From: Bolinopsis microptera
Taxonomy: Eukaryota; Ctenophora; Tentaculata; Lobata; Bolinopsidae
Direction of reading: 5' to 3'
DNA: 64,000 nucleotides
Assembly (NCBI RefSeq): GCF_026151205.1
Contig: NC_087082.1
Coordinates: 18,757,401 to 18,821,400 of the forward strand
Shown: positions 42,933 through 54,073 of the stretch, one piece after another
Layout: each line of letters begins with the position of its first letter
How positions within the stretch are numbered: position 1 is the first letter of the stretch
Position numbers and translations under genes: made by a program
The notes under the pieces: model-generated
The model's input: only the letters and a program-made list of their open reading frames with translations
Database searches by the model: none
What the model was told of the DNA's origin: nothing

Positions 42933-45495
42933 ATGATGCTGAATGGCGAGAAGCTTTCCGACGTTGGGACTTCCCAGTCCAACGTGCCCCAGTTGAATAG
43001 GATATTGCCATTACCCTACGAGAGCTACTCACCATATCAGAAGTTGTATATACTGAGAGAAAAACTCAATTTCCTACGATCTTGTACTACTCTTAAACGG
43101 CCCCCCTCCGGCCTCCACACTAAGGATCAGTGTTGCTAACGCTATTAAAGATGACCTCAAATTGTTCCATTTTTCTCAATTAGAGACTAGACTCCTTGCT
43201 TATGCTATCAAGAACAAGCTCAATGAGGTCAGATCCCTTAGCCAGAAGGTAAACTCAGAAGAATCGGACCAAACCCCCATGCCACTAAAGGAACGGACCA
43301 CCTTGAGAAAGCATTTTGACAAGAAAATCAGTTTCTACAAACTCCAAGAGAAAGAGAAGTGGGACCATTGGCCACGCAAGACTCCGGATATACTTAGAGT
43401 TTTGAGTGACCGAAAAGACAAAAACTATAAAAGACGTGAGAACCAAAGACACCGAAGAATAGAAAAAGAAGCTCGAAAGGCCTTAGACGAAGGAAGTGTC
43501 GTGGTACTAGTGGATGTGGGAGAAGAAATTCCACTTGAAGCGATAGCAGTGTTAAACAAAGGGCTAGGTTTTGTACCAACCCCAAAGGTTGACATGGAGG
43601 AGGCTCGCTTGGACATGCGCTTAACAATAAACAGAATCGTAACTGCCTCAACAAGAAGCCTCAACAGCTCACCTACAACATCATGTGAGGACCTATCAAC
43701 GCTTGATTTGGAACAGACCGCCCCAACTGGACTACCTCCACAACTATCAAGGAAGTATTACGGTAGAAAGCCCCCAAGTGAGGACCAATCCATCAATGAG
43801 ATTACAAACACCATGGCAGCGGACTTAGATCAGCAACTCATTAGAGGACCTAAAACTAATCTACAGCCTAAAAACCTCAACAAGATAGAGTCCCGTGGCC
43901 TCAAATGGTTAGAAAGAATGATCAAACATGAAAAACTTGCAATAGTTGCAGCTGACAAAGGTGGAGCCGTGTTACTAGTGGACCCAGCTATGCTAAAGCG
44001 AAGAACACAGGAAAAGCTCGACAACCCCCTATTGTATAAAAAGCTCGCTAAAGACCCTACGCAAGACCTACACCAGGAACTATTTGATTTATGGATCGAG
44101 GGAAAAAAGAAAAACTTTGTTACACCAAAAGAAGCTAAAGACATCATGGGTATTACCAACAATCTAAACAGTGATGGTACAGTTACTAACAACAAGAGTA
44201 CTTCTTCCCACTTCAAACCTGGTAAAGCTTATTTCTACCCCACCCTAAAGATCCACAAGCTTCAAAAGGAAGACCTTAAACCAGGAGTCGAACCCCCCTT
44301 CAGGCTCATCACGGCACTCCAGGATGGAATCACAAAACGCAGTGATGTTTTCCTCGCCAGCCAATACCTGAAGGATCTTGAAAAAGATTTCTGCTCTGAC
44401 CTTTTGACTGATAGCACTGATGCCCTTCAATGGTTGGATTTCGTGGATAGTGAACATTCCCCAGTACAGAAGAAAGGCTTCAGATCATCTACCTACGACT
44501 TTAGGGCCCTCTATGATTCTCTAACACCACCCCTCGTCAAAGAGGCCCTGAATTCCGCTATGTCATCATGCAGAGAAGATTGGTCTGAAGATTTCTGCAA
44601 ATGGCTCACCAAATTGGTGGAATTGAGCCTTCGATCCTCTGCTGGGGTGTTCGATCAAAATTGGTTCATACAGCTCATCGGTATCCCTATAACGGGTGGA
44701 TCACTATGTGTCCAAATCGCAAACATAGCAGTCTACTACCTAATGAACAAATGTGTTTATAGTAACCCAGAGCTCATGAATAAGATCGTATCAGCCAGGC
44801 GTTACATTGACGACGGAGCAGGTTTGTTTGAGGGAACTACAGATGAGTTCAAAATTTGGATTGCAGATGTTAACAAAGCACTCCTCTCCCATGGCTTAAT
44901 CATTGATGAATACCAAATAGAAGACCCTGGTAAATACGTATCTTTCCTTGACATAATGTTCACCTTCGATTCCTTAGGATCCCTCCAAACGGATTTGTTC
45001 ATAAAGCCAACAGACTCTCGTTCATATCTACATTTTAAAAGCTCCCACCCTAACCATATCTATTCCGGTATCGTGTACTCTCAATGCCTTAGACTCAGAC
45101 GGATCATCAACTGCCAAGAACGCCTGAAAGAACATCTCAACAACCTCAAAAAAGCCTTTCTTGCCGCATGTTACCCTAGAAAAATGATTGAGAACATCAG
45201 TAATAAGGTCCTTAACACAGCAAGATCACTGTCACGCAAAGTTCAGGCTCCTGATGACCAGACATCATTACATCTTCCAATCAGGGTCATATCTACTTAT
45301 GGTAGTGATGATGATCTGGTGTCTGTGACTAAGAAGTATGAAGAACACCTCTCAAGAACGAGGAGTTTCAGTGAAAGTGACACTGCTGAAACATCCCAAG
45401 AGACCTCCTCAACATCCGCCACGCCTAGGAAGACAATTTTCAGTTACACAAAGAAAACAGGGCCAAGCCTAAAATCTCGCCTCGTTTTGTTTTGA
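42933..45495 (+). pseudogene. Penelope-like reverse transcriptase (interrupted)
   Basis: The frame starts at ATG 42933 (MLNGEKLSDVGTSQSN). Near 43110 it needs a one-base shift (LRSCTTLKRPPSGL, then ISVANAIKDDLKLFHFSQLE). After that ~780 codons are open. ERMIKHEKLAIVAADKGGAV, then RT motif A TYDFRALYDSL near 44500, motif B GIPITGGSLCVQIANIAVYY and motif C ARRYIDDGAGLF near 44800. FLDIMF and LFIKPTDSRSYLHFKSSHP follow. The protein ends at SLKSRLVLF, where LINE sequence begins, so it loses its GIY-YIG part. Confidence 0.88.
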
Positions 45496-45815
45496 AACCC
45501 CACGGTGGAGGTTGGCGTGTGCCGCAATTTATTGATCAATGGTTATTACATAAATGAAATTATAGAAGTCACACTAAAATATAATAATGTAAAATAAATA
45601 TATTAAAATAAATGCCCTACTAAAAGTACTATATAACTAACGGTCTGCAAAACTGGTTGAAGTCGCAATTTGTAAACATGCTAATTACTATTTAATAGTA
45701 ATAGATAAAAAGTTTTGCGCGGCAGATGTAAATTCGGCATTGCATAATGGCAGTGAAATTAAAATGATATGTTGTTGATAACAGATCATAGTCATTTGAC
45801 GCGAGTGATCTTTCT

Positions 45816-48800
45816 TTACGCGTTGTCGCTTACTAACTCGGTGCTGTAGTCTATTTGCGAGCGCCCTTCTCTTTGAGACTTTCTTAGCCCAGGTATACTA
45901 TAAAGTAAGAAATTTGGCCAATTTTCATCGTCTCCTGAGCTTTGCAGCTTGAGGAGTTCGCGCTTAGCTGAATTTTTAAAGATTTCAATTGAAAAGGTAG
46001 AACTTGGAATAGTTATATCCTTACTTTGTTTTGTAATAGAGAGCATGGGTCCTTTGAAGAAAAGAGTATTTCTAAATGTTGGGCCGTTGTAAGTTGTGAA
46101 CCAAGAAAGGTTATGTTCGAATGTGGAATTATAGGTGGGAATATCGTGAGGGAAAAGTTCTTTGACGGATTTAGGGAGAAGGCTTGGCATGTTCCTTACT
46201 TTGTGTAGTAGAATAAGAGCGTTTTTTACAATGACGCTATGGACTGTTAGGATATTATGCAATCTAAACGCACTTTTTGTGTGCTCCGGGGGATTGCCGT
46301 CTTTATATCTATAATTTACATATCCTGACATAACAGCTCTAATTCCCTGCTTTTGCTTGGTGAACAGAGATTCAATGTGACATTTTGAGGCAAATCCCCA
46401 CACTAAAGAACAGAAATTTAGATGGGATTGGATAAGGCTTTGGAAAATGTTTAGGCGGGCTTTGATAGGTAGAAGGTGCTTTAGCTTATACATAACTCCG
46501 AGGTAGCGACCCATCTTTATTCTAACGGCCGTAATGTGTTTTTGCCAAGTGAGCTTTTCGTCTAGGATCACTCCTAAAAATCTTGCTTCAGTCTTACGTT
46601 CGATTACAGTGTTGTCAATGGACAAATTAAAGCCGCTGAAGTCGATTCTTTTTCTAGTGAAAATCATGTAACACGTCTTTTTTACATTTAAAGATAGCCC
46701 ATTAACACCTACCCAATCTACAAGACGTGAAATTAGCTGATTAGCTTTTAATTGTATTTCTTCTAGGGTGGTTCCACTAATTAATATGTTTGCGTCGTCG
46801 GCATAAAGGATGAACTTTGCAAAATCACTAATTCCAGGTAGGTCGTTTATATAAATTACAAATAAGAGAGGTCCTAAAATGCTACCCTGAGGTACGCCGT
46901 AAACTATGGGCATGCTAGAAGAGCAAGTTCCGTTTAAAGTTACGTATTGAGATCGATTACAAAGGTAAGATCTAAACCATTCGTGCGCGACTCCCCTGAT
47001 CCCATAATGGTCAAGCTTCTTAAGCAAGGTCTCATGATCAAGCACGTCAAAGGCTTTACTGTAATCGAGCAGGAGCAGTAGGGAAATTTTTTTCTTATTC
47101 AGAGAGTGTAGTATGGAATTTTGGGCATTGAGCAGTGCATGTTCGCACGATCTTCCTGGCCGAAATCCGTATTGATTTTCGAAAAGAGAATCGTTCTTAT
47201 CTAAAAATTCTAAAACACGAGCATGCATAAGTTTCTCATAAATTTTCGAGAATGATCCCAAAAGAGAGATCGGCCTATAATTAGCTACTTCCAATTTTGA
47301 ACCACCTTTGTGGATAGGAACGACTTTCGCAGTTTTTAGAGCATTTGGGAAGGTACCACTGGAGAACGAACAGTTAATGACATTAGCTAGTGCCCTGGTA
47401 AAGTTTTCGCAGCTGTTTGCAATTTTCAATGGCTCAATTTTACAATCGAGTGTGGACTTGTTCTTAAGCCCTGATATTATCTTTTGGACTTCACCGTGTG
47501 ATGTAGGCTTAAGAAACATCGAGTTACTACACGAAGCCTTAAGAAAATGCTTGAAACCACCTGGGTCAAAGGTTCGACGGGCAGCGATTTGCCTCTTGAT
47601 ACTGGCTGCAATACCGGAGAAGTAGCCGTTAAATTTCTCAGCGACTGCCAGATCGGAGCTTATAATCGTGCCATCGTCGTCCTTCAGACGGGTGTGTCCG
47701 AACTTTTTTCTGTTACGGTTCAGGAGGCCATTGATAATTTTCCATTGACTTTTAGAGCAGTTTTGGTATTTGTCAAACATTTTTTTATAGTACTTTTCTT
47801 TGGCTAGATTCACATGTTTGTGACAAAACTTTTTCATTTTATCATACGCGTCGCAGTTTTTTTGTGATGGATTTATAGTTTTTTCAAAAAAAAGTAACTT
47901 CTTGCGGTTGCATGCCGCCTCAAGCCAGGGTAAGATCCAAGGCTTTGGGTCAGCTCTTTCGAATTTTCTTCTCGAACTGTCGCGCTTCAGGGGGTATGCA
48001 GTATTGTAGTGTTTCATGTACGTTTGATAGATGGAATTGTATTGTTCATCAGCGCACGTTGAGGAGGTAGCATCATCCCAGGTCTCACTTACAATAAGCT
48101 CTTTGAATTTAGCATGATTAGCTTCGTTAAATACACGGGCCTCTAATTTCAAGCTAGTGTTGTTGTTCTTTACACGTTGACTACGGAATCGCTCGTTCAA
48201 ACTAGGTGTGGCTCCTAAACTAATGGTCGTGCTAACCGCGAGATGATCTGACATATCCAACGTCACGACATTACAACTAATAACGTTTGTCACGTGATTA
48301 GTATACACGTGATCAATAAGCGTTGCACTGTGGTCAGTTACCCTGGTAGGCTTGGAGACAGTCTGGGCAAACCCATATTTTTCTAGTAAGCTTATAAGAT
48401 CCTGGCTGTAAGCGTCGGTATCGTATTTTATAAGATCAATATTTGCATCACCCAGGAAGACTATCTGCTTTCTGGAGTGTCTATCAAGACCCCTGAGCAC
48501 GTTTTCAAACTTTTCAAGGAATTTTTTAGGGCTTGTGGATGGCGAGCGGTAGAAATTTACGATGATTTTTGTCTTATTTCCGTTTTTAAAATTGTTGATT
48601 TTAAGCAATTGAAATTCTCCGCAAGTAACTTCTTCTGGACTCAGATTGAGTTCGAGTTCCTGTATTTTATCGTAATTACAAACGCGTTTGTTAACATAGA
48701 GCGCAAGACCACCTCCTTTTCCAGATTTACGTGCAGGTTCTTTGATAAAGGGCTCGTAAAACTGTTCGATTTCAATGTCGTTCAGACCATTAGGAAGATT

Positions 48801-48836
48801 AGAAATTTTACAGTTGGTTTCATTGAGGCAGAGGTC
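45816..48836 (-). CDS. LINE ORF2: endonuclease (N-terminally short) and reverse transcriptase
   Basis: Open for 1006 codons from just after a TGA at 48839-48837. It overlaps the last codons of ORF1 in another frame and has no good ATG near its start. The endonuclease begins only at LCLNET, so the first ~25 residues usual for the fold are absent. GKGGGLALYVNK, FLGDANIDL, DHVYTN and MSDHLAV follow. RT: VVPIHKGG, NYRPISLLGSFSKIYEKLM, LLDYSKAFDVLDH near 47060, YGVPQGSILGPLLFVIYIND, and ILYADDANILI near 46800, then FLGVILDEKLTW. The short endonuclease and missing start suggest translation coupled to ORF1, by frameshift or reinitiation, or a damaged 5' end. Confidence 0.88.
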   Translation of the reverse strand, partial: DLCLNETNCKISNLPNGLNDIEIEQFYEPFIKEPARKSGKGGGLALYVNKRVCNYDKIQELELNLSPEEVTCGEFQLLKINNFKNGNKTKIIVNFYRSPSTSPKKFLEKFENVLRGLDRHSRKQIVFLGDANIDLIKYDTDAYSQDLISLLEKYGFAQTVSKPTRVTDHSATLIDHVYTNHVTNVISCNVVTLDMSDHLAVSTTISLGATPSLNERFRSQRVKNNNTSLKLEARVFNEANHAKFKELIVSETWDDATSSTCADEQYNSIYQTYMKHYNTAYPLKRDSSRRKFERADPKPWILPWLEAACNRKKLLFFEKTINPSQKNCDAYDKMKKFCHKHVNLAKEKYYKKMFDKYQNCSKSQWKIINGLLNRNRKKFGHTRLKDDDGTIISSDLAVAEKFNGYFSGIAASIKRQIAARRTFDPGGFKHFLKASCSNSMFLKPTSHGEVQKIISGLKNKSTLDCKIEPLKIANSCENFTRALANVINCSFSSGTFPNALKTAKVVPIHKGGSKLEVANYRPISLLGSFSKIYEKLMHARVLEFLDKNDSLFENQYGFRPGRSCEHALLNAQNSILHSLNKKKISLLLLLDYSKAFDVLDHETLLKKLDHYGIRGVAHEWFRSYLCNRSQYVTLNGTCSSSMPIVYGVPQGSILGPLLFVIYINDLPGISDFAKFILYADDANILISGTTLEEIQLKANQLISRLVDWVGVNGLSLNVKKTCYMIFTRKRIDFSGFNLSIDNTVIERKTEARFLGVILDEKLTWQKHITAVRIKMGRYLGVMYKLKHLLPIKARLNIFQSLIQSHLNFCSLVWGFASKCHIESLFTKQKQGIRAVMSGYVNYRYKDGNPPEHTKSAFRLHNILTVHSVIVKNALILLHKVRNMPSLLPKSVKELFPHDIPTYNSTFEHNLSWFTTYNGPTFRNTLFFKGPMLSITKQSKDITIPSSTFSIEIFKNSAKRELLKLQSSGDDENWPNFLLYSIPGLRKSQREGRSQIDYSTELVSDNA

Positions 48837-50049
48837 TCAGGGGGTCGGATGGTGCTATTGACGGTTCATGGATTTTAGGAATGTGCGTGCGCATGGGCTT
48901 GTCAATGCGTCTAAAGGTCACTGACACACGACACGAGGTGACGCCAGGTTCGGGTTGTATCGCATGCTCCCAGAAAAACTGAGACTCTGTGGTCATTGCG
49001 TACACTGTGCCATTCCTTAGTTCGTGTTCACGTCGCTCATCAGTGACTATGTTACGGAAAGTTAAGGTGCGAGTGGCCCCAAAGCTGGCAGTGATGATTT
49101 CACCCGTTAAGCCTGTTTCATTATCAGAGTGAAACGGGATAGAGTCTGAGCCTGTCTGGTATCTAGTGACCATGCAAGTAACGTTATCCCTATTGAAGGT
49201 GGGATCGTCTAGTTCGTCAGCTATACAGTCTAGTATCTTATTTACAGCGTGATCAGATGGTGGGTAGGCCTTAGCGCGATGGGTAATACTGCCGTAACTG
49301 TATTTACTGGAGCCGAAGTAAGAGACGTCACGTGATCCTATGCGTTGAAAGTCCAGTCCATCACAAACATTATGCGTTTCAAACTCAAACTTTGATCGCA
49401 AACTTCTTACCGGAGTAGCTTCTAGTACTTCCTCGTGTCCGGCTGGAGAACCTGTGACGAAGGTTGAGGGATCCGAAGTAGTGTTGGGAGTAGAGTTCCT
49501 AGCGACGAGAGAACTAGAGCTCCTTATCACCTCCTTGTATTCGTCAAGCGTCTGTTCGGCTTTTTCCAGCAGCATGCAAAAATCGGAGGTTAGATTATCG
49601 TGTATAGTCTGCTTATCAGTTGGATTTCTGATAAGATGATCATAGTATCTAGAGTCTAGATTTAGCTTTGCTGTCATGTATGGTTTTCGTAGCGTTTTGT
49701 TTGTAGATTTACAGAGTCCGGCACTTAAAGATTCACGATAAAGTTGGTCCGGTGTAAGTGACGGCAGTAGCTCGAGGCAAGTTTCTGGCGTAAAAGTAGG
49801 TACCCAAAAACCAACAAACTCTGTCTGCGTACTGTGATTTTCGACGTTTATCTTACCTTCAGCTTGAGGGTTTGCCGAGCAGTGTTTTTGATCTGCGGCA
49901 GTGGTGGGGGCACCACTGCCCAGCAACCCCTTTTCAGATGTGTCGCTCTGCGTCGTGGTACTCGAACTAGAGGTAGGGCTGTGGGACTCCAGAGGACTCG
50001 AGGGGATCAAGCTTAGGTCAGTAGGACTCGAACTAGGCTCAGAAGACAT
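48820..50049 (-). CDS. LINE ORF1 with AlkB-type 2OG-Fe(II) oxygenase domain
   Basis: Intact ORF of 409 residues from ATG 50049. Residues 1-75 are Ser/Thr-rich and low complexity. Residues 76-230 are unrecognised. Residues ~235-382 match an AlkB fold: SRDVSYFGSSKYSYG (239-253), VTRYQTGSDSIPFHSDNE with the iron ligands H307 and D309, GATRTLTFRN, NGTVYAMTTESQFFWEHAI with ligand H362, and CRVSVTFRRI with the 2-oxoglutarate Arg (374 or 380). AlkB enzymes oxidatively remove methyl groups from nucleic acid bases. The layout resembles AlkB domains of plant RNA virus replicases. Its place directly upstream of ORF2 on the same strand makes it ORF1. No CCHC knuckle or RRM is seen. Confidence 0.88.
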   Translation of the reverse strand: MSSEPSSSPTDLSLIPSSPLESHSPTSSSSTTTQSDTSEKGLLGSGAPTTAADQKHCSANPQAEGKINVENHSTQTEFVGFWVPTFTPETCLELLPSLTPDQLYRESLSAGLCKSTNKTLRKPYMTAKLNLDSRYYDHLIRNPTDKQTIHDNLTSDFCMLLEKAEQTLDEYKEVIRSSSSLVARNSTPNTTSDPSTFVTGSPAGHEEVLEATPVRSLRSKFEFETHNVCDGLDFQRIGSRDVSYFGSSKYSYGSITHRAKAYPPSDHAVNKILDCIADELDDPTFNRDNVTCMVTRYQTGSDSIPFHSDNETGLTGEIITASFGATRTLTFRNIVTDERREHELRNGTVYAMTTESQFFWEHAIQPEPGVTSCRVSVTFRRIDKPMRTHIPKIHEPSIAPSDPLRPLPQ

Positions 50050-50196
50050 GGTATAGAGGGTGTAAAAGTAGGTGTAGGATGTAAACTGGTTAACAAGACG
50101 TGGCTAAAAGGCAGGTCAGGCCGCGCGTTATCAGCTTATCAGATTACTATCAGCAGCAACAAAACATTTAGTGAATATTGATGATTGTCAAATTGA

Positions 50197-50712
50197 ATGA
50201 TCGTCAAATTGAAAGAACTTGCTTTAGGAGCCCAACATGGCCCAACCAGCAAATGCAATGTGCCAAGATGCAAATGTTGTGAACCTGTCAAAGGCACCCG
50301 TGAATTCAAAGTGAACGGCAAGAAGGTTAAAGCTTCCCCCGGAAACTGCCAGAGCTACAACATCATTTATCTGTTCCAATGTAGTGTCTGTGGAAAGGCT
50401 TACGTCGGTCGCACAACTCGATCTCTACGGGTTAGGACTGGAGAACATAGGGTCAAATATTATAAACTTTTAAATGGTGATAAGGTAGATGAAACAAGTG
50501 ATGAATATAGTTTGGGTTTACATTTGTTGGATCATGGTTTTAGACAAAGGGAAGATTTTAACAAAATTTTTAATGTGTCAATTATTGATAATTCTAGTCC
50601 TAAAACTTTGGATGTCCGTGAACATAAATATATTCAACTACTCAAGACTTTAAAACCTTTGGGAATTAACACTATAAATCCTTTTGGCCTTCCATTACTC
50701 CTAACATCTTAA
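50197..50712 (+). pseudogene. Penelope-like GIY-YIG endonuclease part
   Basis: About 171 residues continuing the split RT. A Cys motif CNVPRCKCC comes first, then NIIYLFQCSVCGKAYVGRTT (GIY and YIG elements with catalytic-type Tyr and Arg) and RVRTGEHRV, ending in PLGINTINPFGLP. By analogy with other elements it would follow SLKSRLV of the RT without a break. The AlkB LINE sits exactly in between. Confidence 0.88.
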
Positions 50713-52599: not shown

Positions 52600-54073
52600 C
52601 CTGCACCACATAGTCACTCCTTTCTCCGATGTATTAGGCCTCTCCAATGTACCCTGTTTGTTGCTTGTTGTTCTGCATCTTCTATCGTGATGTTATCGAC
52701 ACCTGTGAAGATTGCTGCATCCTCCCGGAAACATGACAGCCAATTTTTCCGAGGTCTGCCTCTTGATCTTTTACCATGCTTTGGGATCCAGTGCAGAAGA
52801 TAGTTGGGTATTCTTTCTTCTGGCATCCTCACCACATGGCCAAACCATCGGAGCCTAGCTGCTTGTACGAAAGTATCAACAGGGGCGATGTTGGCCCGCT
52901 TACGTACGTCAGCATTAGATACGTGATAAAACCATTTGATTTTCAGGATTCTTCTCAGACATCTGTGATGGAACACCTCAAATCTTTTCATCTGCGTCTG
53001 TGTGGTATTCCATACCTCACTTCCATAAAGCAGTATAGTGAGGACAGCCGCTTTGTAGATCCTGATTTTAGTCGGTGTCTTGATGTTGCGACTGTACCAT
53101 ATACTGCTAAGCTGATAGAATGCCCCAGAGGCCTTCTGAATTCGAGCTGATAGTTCTTTGTCGATTGTTCCATCCGCACTGATGATAGCACCCAAGTAAG
53201 TGAAGCTGCTGACCTGCTGTATTGGGAGACCTTCCACATTGATGTCCATAGTGTCGTCTTTAGAATACGGCCTCTGCGATGCACTTTTACTGACAGCCAT
53301 GCTCTGTGTTTTGCCAGCATTAATCTTCAGACCCGCATAGGCACTGTATTTGCAGAGAAGGTCAGTGGTTTCCTGCAGCCCCTCTTTTGAGTTATCTAAC
53401 ATGGCCATGTCATCAGCGTAATCAGTGTCCAAGAGATGTTTCTCTTCTACCCCGGGGGCTGGCAGCTGTAATAGAGCCCCCTTACTAATGACCTTGTTCA
53501 GTTCCATAAGGTATGCCGAAAAATTCAGACAGAAGTTGAATACTGGTGGTCCCTGTATATCACCTTGCCCAGTTCCCGAGTTGACATCAAACCAGCCTGT
53601 AACCTCTCCATTGACCCTAACAGCACTAACTGTGTGAGTAAAGAACGCCTTCATGATTCTAATGTACTTGTCAGGTAAGCCGTAGTGCTGCATACTTCTC
53701 CAAATGGCGCATATGCCACTGAATAAATAAGTAAGGAGCCATTATCCAGTAGCTCTGATCCAGTACCAGGCATATGGGTCTCAGTTATACCCAGCAAGTC
53801 CAACTTATACTCAGAGATATTCTCTGATAGCTGGAACAACTGACTTGAACTACTTGTCAGAGATAATACATTCCATGTCCCAAATGTAAGACCTGTTTTA
53901 GAATAATTCGCTGGCTGTTTCTTATTAGAGTCGGAGTCCACATGGGTGATCTGTGGAGAAATAAATCTGCTACAATGACGTGTTCTCCCAACACTCATCT
54001 GGCCACGGGGGTCCCTTAGGCTTTGCCCCGCCACCTTCATACTGGTATCATCCGTCCTTGCAGAGGGAGCCAC
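52600..54073 (-). pseudogene. internally deleted LINE (endonuclease start fused to RT end)
   Basis: On the minus strand, 54073-53700 encodes the start of an APE endonuclease (LTFGTWNVLSLTSSSS, LDLLGITETHMPGTGSELL). At about 53695 it jumps into the end of an RT in another frame (MQHYGLPDKYIRIMKAFF, GQGDIQGPPVFNF, DYADDMAML, ILLYGSEVWNTT, RLRWFGHVVRMPEERIP, KHGKRSRGRPRKNW), stopping near 52614. Most of the endonuclease and the RT fingers are missing. The copy must be inactive. Confidence 0.85.

Follow-up and report, generated by a model that had tools for sequence, protein, structure and literature searches.

The locus described here raises the question whether a long interspersed nuclear element (LINE) can carry, in its first open reading frame (ORF1), an enzyme domain of the AlkB type, and what such a domain would do there. 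The locus lies in a stretch of 64,000 nucleotides (hereafter the window) of the genome of the ctenophore Bolinopsis microptera (assembly GCF_026151205.1, contig NC_087082.1, positions 18,757,401 to 18,821,400). The original prediction, made from the letters of this DNA alone, had proposed an intact ORF1 of 409 residues with an AlkB domain, directly upstream of and overlapping a reverse transcriptase (RT) ORF on the same strand. The 409-residue frame at 48820..50049 is real and is located on the minus strand, about which the prediction was silent. It encodes a disordered start, a coiled-coil region and the AlkB (2-oxoglutarate (2OG)-Fe(II) oxygenase) domain, the latter at 48898..49425 of the minus strand (residues 209-384, the range being taken from the fold alignment of the relative P0001, which has the same numbering).

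The identification of the domain was borne out by comparisons of sequence and fold. The window ORF1 matched the Pfam family 2OG-FeII_Oxy_2 with 64.2 bits (cut-off 31.2), and its best match by sequence among solved structures was human ALKBH3 (E 8.8e-8). The predicted structure shows the double-stranded beta-helix fold of AlkB proteins, and both sequence score and predicted fold point to ALKBH2 and ALKBH3 as the nearest relatives, although the identity to the two human proteins over the fold alignment is as low as 23-25%. The predicted Fe(II) ligands H307, D309 and H362 and the predicted 2OG-binding arginines R374 and R380 were invariant in an alignment of six sequences. Substitution of the ligands in the family consensus had been named as a reason to abandon the idea; instead, all five residues were unchanged in 20 of 20 aligned relatives, down to approximately 29% identity. 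The pattern H-x-D/E...H...RxxxxxR fitted 138 of the 144 relatives listed, or 137 if only D was accepted. Among the seven lacking the D-type motif, P0023, P0066 and P0102 have no H-x-D-x-E, and P0064 is a chimera, in which PHD-like and AlkB parts are joined to an RT fragment.

ORF1 of the window copy is not intact, as had been assumed. The LINE copy occupies 45485..50181 on the minus strand; its limits were defined by blastn homology to seven near-full-length sister copies, which begin at positions corresponding to 50160 to 50187 of the window, and by junction sequences. The 5' end is near 50181, and the 3' end, with a short (AAAAC)n-like tail, is near 45485. Alignment with the sister copies is broken between 48833 and 48832 (deletion junction 48832..48833), where 1561 bp are missing relative to sister copy L009. 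Splicing as the source of this gap was rejected because the ends of the gap lack GT-AG. Through the internal deletion the copy lost the SGNH half of ORF1 together with the spacer and the beginning of ORF2; it retains an ORF2 remnant of 1006 residues from stop to stop (45816..48836, minus strand), which contains an APE-type endonuclease (EN) without its start, followed by the RT. In Pfam the matches to Exo_endo_phos_2 (PF14529, 48234..48563, minus strand) and to RVT_1 (PF00078, 46566..47312, minus strand, E 6e-34) both exceeded the cut-off. Thus an RT ORF does lie next to ORF1 on the same strand, but the overlap of the two frames is a consequence of the deletion and not a natural arrangement. 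No clear target-site duplication was seen by eye in the flanks of the window copy. Short tandem repeats, different in each copy, were noticed by eye right before the element start at the 5' junctions of L009, L010, L012, L014 and, near 50181, of the window copy; they look as if they had been produced during insertion.

The undamaged structure could be reconstructed from other copies. A search of the same genome (264.65 Mb, 232 contigs) with the 409-residue window ORF yielded 102 scored matches of 806 candidates, 96 of which had no internal stops, and in 71 of these 96 the open frame was at least 530 codons long. In the seven sister copies the place of ORF1 is taken by an open frame of 620 codons from stop to stop (602 residues from ATG), and the near-full-length copies consist of ORF1, a spacer of approximately 500 bp and an ORF2 of 1161 codons, which starts with a Cys-rich segment, finger-like by eye. 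In the intact ORF2 of L009, PF14529, PF03372 and PF00078 all exceeded the Pfam cut-offs. The ORF2 start of L028 (L028:4141-7809) matched a C1-type zinc finger with 27.4 bits (cut-off 26.5), and that of L050 gave a PHD-like Pfam match under the cut-off. An initial protein search identified five relatives of 546-601 residues. The nearest of these, P0001, is 94% identical across all 409 window residues and continues for approximately 190 residues. This additional C-terminal part gave in the five relatives a weak match to a GDSL lipase family (PF13472, 17 to 24 bits, cut-off 32.9); the corresponding part is SGNH-like in the sister copies and absent from the window copy. ORF1 is composed of an N-terminal region, which includes a PHD finger in some families, a coiled coil, the AlkB domain and an SGNH esterase-like domain, and is of the esterase or PHD type found in the CR1/L2 lineage of the Jockey superfamily. 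Compared with solved structures the RT scored highest with L1 ORF2p entries, which does not decide the clade.

When three match lists were pooled, at least 180 distinct AlkB-ORF1 loci, whole or partial, were counted in this genome. The copies of the window's family form a series of 5' truncations, with starts between query positions 1 and 2885 and most of them reaching the query end, and the copies compared by blastn and junction sequences have a common 3' end. The multi-copy element with its EN-RT ORF2, 5'-truncated series and common 3' part is a LINE, that is, a retrotransposon without long terminal repeats (LTR), and the window copy belongs, in damaged form, to a LINE group that is large, young and diverse.

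The assignment of the AlkB domain to a LINE ORF1, correctly proposed from a single copy, rests on linkage that recurs across families and copies. We examined 20 regions of 10 kb, containing the 19 best matches after the window and the weakest match. In 19 of the 20 an EN or EN-RT match followed downstream in the same orientation; in L019 the distance to it was approximately 5 kb. In further families the AlkB motif was present in all 12 chosen ORF1 loci (L029-L040), and all 10 downstream pieces (L041-L050) matched an ORF2 query, L048 at 22% identity only; the ORF2 beside the ORF1 of L048 belongs to a distant type and could have been inserted separately. In the L051 family the 551-codon ORF1s have the AlkB domain, a weak GDSL match and an endonuclease start just downstream. 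Among the matches listed, an AlkB-ORF1 was found at most 4.5 kb upstream on the same strand for 31 of 67 ORF2 rows, and a neighbour in another orientation once. Locus L039 (G000 C12:12223200-12227000) has an open frame of 1163 codons, in which an RT that is Penelope-like by eye runs in frame into the AlkB-SGNH ORF1; a finger-endonuclease ORF2 comes next. The long frame looks like an in-frame insertion.

The AlkB domain is under purifying selection, as estimated from distinct variants among copies, which were small in number. In 11 copies of the window's family (family A) there were 9 synonymous and 5 non-synonymous variants (ratio 0.16, p 0.001), and in four copies of a second family 6 and 2 (ratio 0.09, p 0.002). 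For the SGNH domain of the same two families the synonymous to non-synonymous counts were 7 to 9 (0.33, p 0.03) and 8 to 6 (0.20, p 0.004). These counts include post-insertion changes, which dilute the signal. The variant ratio of the N-terminal part of family A (0.89) was not used as a control, since it includes stop-to-stop leader sequence. In this recently active LINE group the AlkB-SGNH ORF1 protein (ORF1p) is a permanent constituent maintained by selection.

In the SGNH part of the 20 relatives S417, G461 and N463 are invariant and H557 is nearly so. At the triad position expected to hold Asp, the window's family has Asn (NGIH); Asp is kept in the commonest types overall. Membrane targeting was proposed for the SGNH domain of ZfL2-1 (PMC3905857). 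A 1019-codon ORF without AlkB (L052:340-3396, minus strand; G000 C8) gave weak P-loop/helicase-like Pfam matches, and its end is 43% identical to the SGNH part of L028. It is possible that in this case a LINE SGNH domain was captured by another gene.

A profile search detected 27 proteins, and a second search seeded with the PHD type detected 171, at least 117 of them new among the 120 matches listed. Two proteins are from Mnemiopsis leidyi: P0141 and P0010 (hypothetical protein ACHWQZ_G001240). P0010, which is a gene model only, has AlkB and endonuclease domains in Pfam. The stretch between them aligns with the SGNH part of the relatives, with no GDSL family listed there by Pfam, and the endonuclease part shows 35% identity to the window ORF2 over 454 residues. 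In a scan of viral contigs a pattern was matched by 22 stretches, none of which encoded a relative.

Trees were built for 12 families of this genome. The main splits are the same in the AlkB and SGNH trees (support values are given as AlkB/SGNH tree): families M, J, H, I and D group together (98/97), as do the PHD pair (98/100) and F with G (100/100), and A groups with B with moderate support (85/66). The ORF2 tree joins B with E (99) and separates B, E and the PHD pair from A (100). The conflict covers the pairs of L009, L024, L028 and L030/L042. Because the ORF2 tree disagrees with the AlkB and SGNH trees, ORF1, with AlkB and SGNH as a unit, seems to have exchanged ORF2 partners. This would be in line with the reticulate evolution of ORF1 described for the Jockey superfamily (PMC4120745).

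The best explanation, for which we see an about even chance, is that these elements constitute an AlkB-SGNH LINE group, whose ORF1p demethylates N1-methyladenosine (m1A) and N3-methylcytidine (m3C) on its own RNA in cis. ORF1p would coat the element RNA in cis, and its AlkB domain would use Fe(II), O2 and 2OG to strip methyl marks such as m1A and m3C from the packaged RNA, and perhaps also to clear cDNA or target DNA, to the benefit of transposition. The SGNH domain may tether the ribonucleoprotein to membranes, as proposed for ZfL2-1. LINE ORF1 proteins are RNA binders and chaperones that coat the element RNA in cis, and m1A and m3C stop reverse transcription and are substrates of ALKBH2 and ALKBH3. 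For these latter two reasons repair of m1A/m3C is favoured over erasure of N6-methyladenosine (m6A) or N6-methyldeoxyadenosine (6mA) and over a binding role. In a broader form, to which we give somewhat less than even credence, abundant and recently mobile animal LINEs would encode an ALKBH2/3-type dealkylase in ORF1p that clears RT-blocking or silencing marks from RNA or cDNA in cis, and the AlkB-SGNH cassette would have been transferred as one piece from one ORF2 lineage to another. The roles suggested in the original prediction, repair of alkylated template RNA or escape from methylation-based silencing, are reasonable candidates.

Several observations weigh against this explanation. Asn-193 of ALKBH5 helps to hold 2OG (PMC9289625), and at the equivalent position, two before a conserved Tyr, the proteins of the window's group lack Asn: 19 of 21 carry Thr, one Ser and one Ala. 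Nor was Asn shown by a regular expression in any of the 12 family representatives of this genome, one reading being ambiguous. Because the Asn beside the 2OG site is replaced, 2OG binding or the substrate may differ in this group. Knowing the closest relative by fold is also not enough to settle what the substrate is. P0023, which starts similarly and contains an SGNH-like domain, lacks AlkB, so some relatives do without it. Locus L026 had no ORF2 in reach within its 10-kb region, and the counts underlying the selection estimates are small. Finally, 36 of the 67 ORF2 rows, 17 from the window's family and 19 from other families, had no AlkB-ORF1 upstream in the lists. Copies without AlkB had been named in the original prediction as a sign of chance adjacency; tracing, which covered the 17, found all of them truncated 3' of the AlkB part, 12 starting at query position 1348 or later and 5 inside ORF2. 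Conversely, an AlkB match was present in all nine window-family copies that start within 10 bases of the 5' end, the window copy included, although one of the nine is degenerate, with 18 stops. In the second protein group Asn occupies the 2OG-site position in 106 of 117 sequences; T295 of P0001 marks the place of the Asn-to-Thr change across the window's group.

It is conceivable, but in our judgement unlikely, that the AlkB domain removes regulatory marks from the element, either m6A from its RNA or 6mA from its DNA, and in this way lets it escape silencing or surveillance. There are precedents for such a role: m6A is erased in vitro by the product of an orchid Gypsy ORF that includes an ALKBH5-like domain (PMC9289625), and in mouse cells that have lost Alkbh1 the young L1 elements carry more 6mA (review PMC4982230). 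We also think it rather improbable that the domain is non-catalytic and serves in ORF1p as a nucleic-acid-binding module that replaces RRM or CCHC. Such a module would fit the lack of any listed RRM or CCHC match in the Pfam-scanned ORF1 proteins and the Thr, Ser or Ala beside the 2OG site in the window's group, but Fe ligands are needless for pure binding, whereas none of the 20 relatives departs from the three metal ligands or the two arginines, and the depletion of non-synonymous change in AlkB counts against it as well. Chance adjacency, or a single capture that placed a fragment of a host AlkB gene next to an RT, has nothing in its favour beyond what the one window copy could show and can be dismissed with near certainty on the linkage counts, as the same order is found in numerous copies of many families in this genome and in the Mnemiopsis leidyi protein model.

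On either side of the window copy there are plus-strand frames of other origin. The ORF at 43057-45495 is RT-like (YIDD by eye, no Pfam RT match), and that at 50197-50712 gave a GIY-YIG match of 19.0 bits, under the Pfam cut-off of 22.6. The two probably form one Penelope-like element, which was split by the LINE insertion. Another RT ORF (52614-53693, minus strand; RVT_1 34.9 bits and DUF6451 28.2 bits in Pfam) belongs to a different retroelement.

The esterase-type ORF1 of CR1/L2 LINEs is said to have been described by Kapitonov and Jurka in 2003. ZfL2-1 and the Type IV esterase ORF1 proteins of CR1 and L2 LINEs (PMC3905857, PMC4120745) likewise have a coiled coil and a C-terminal SGNH domain, and an ORF2 with APE endonuclease and RT, and other ORF1 types of these lineages carry a PHD finger, as do some families here. 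In contrast to the Type IV esterase ORF1, here AlkB is located between the coiled coil and the SGNH domain. Esterase ORF1s were found only in vertebrate groups according to PMC4120745; cnidarian and sponge ones were also aligned in PMC3905857. The words AlkB, oxygenase and 2OG do not occur in PMC4120745. Among the open-access papers listed we found no account of AlkB in a LINE ORF1; subscription papers, preprints and Repbase were outside this search, so there may be an earlier, unremarked entry. The orchid Ty3/Gypsy element (PMC9289625) also encodes a domain of the AlkB family, an m6A demethylase in vitro, but it is an LTR element reported from Phalaenopsis, with the domain in a separate ORF2 and in the ALKBH5-like clade, whereas the elements described here are non-LTR, belong to many families and have the domain inside ORF1, nearest to ALKBH2/3. 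Plant RNA viruses of the Alpha- and Betaflexiviridae and Closteroviridae are likewise selfish RNA-templated replicators with an AlkB domain (PMC9289625). In the viral library, polyproteins of this kind match the AlkB model. In these viruses AlkB lies within the replicase polyprotein, and neither an RT nor an SGNH partner is known there. Human ALKBH2 and ALKBH3, which are host repair genes, have HxD...H and RxxxxxR in common with the LINE domain, in which the Asn beside the 2OG site is replaced.

If the proposed demethylation of the element's own RNA is true, LINE particles would have an activity new to them, the editing of base methylation by an enzyme that selection maintains across families. 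LINEs would then be, in parallel with the capture of AlkB by plant RNA viruses and by the orchid Gypsy element, a third kind of selfish element with AlkB. The group would also provide a direct handle on the role of base methylation in the retroelement RNA of animals, which may restrict reverse transcription or flag the RNA for silencing, because the proposed answer is encoded by the element itself and can be tested by mutating a single ligand.
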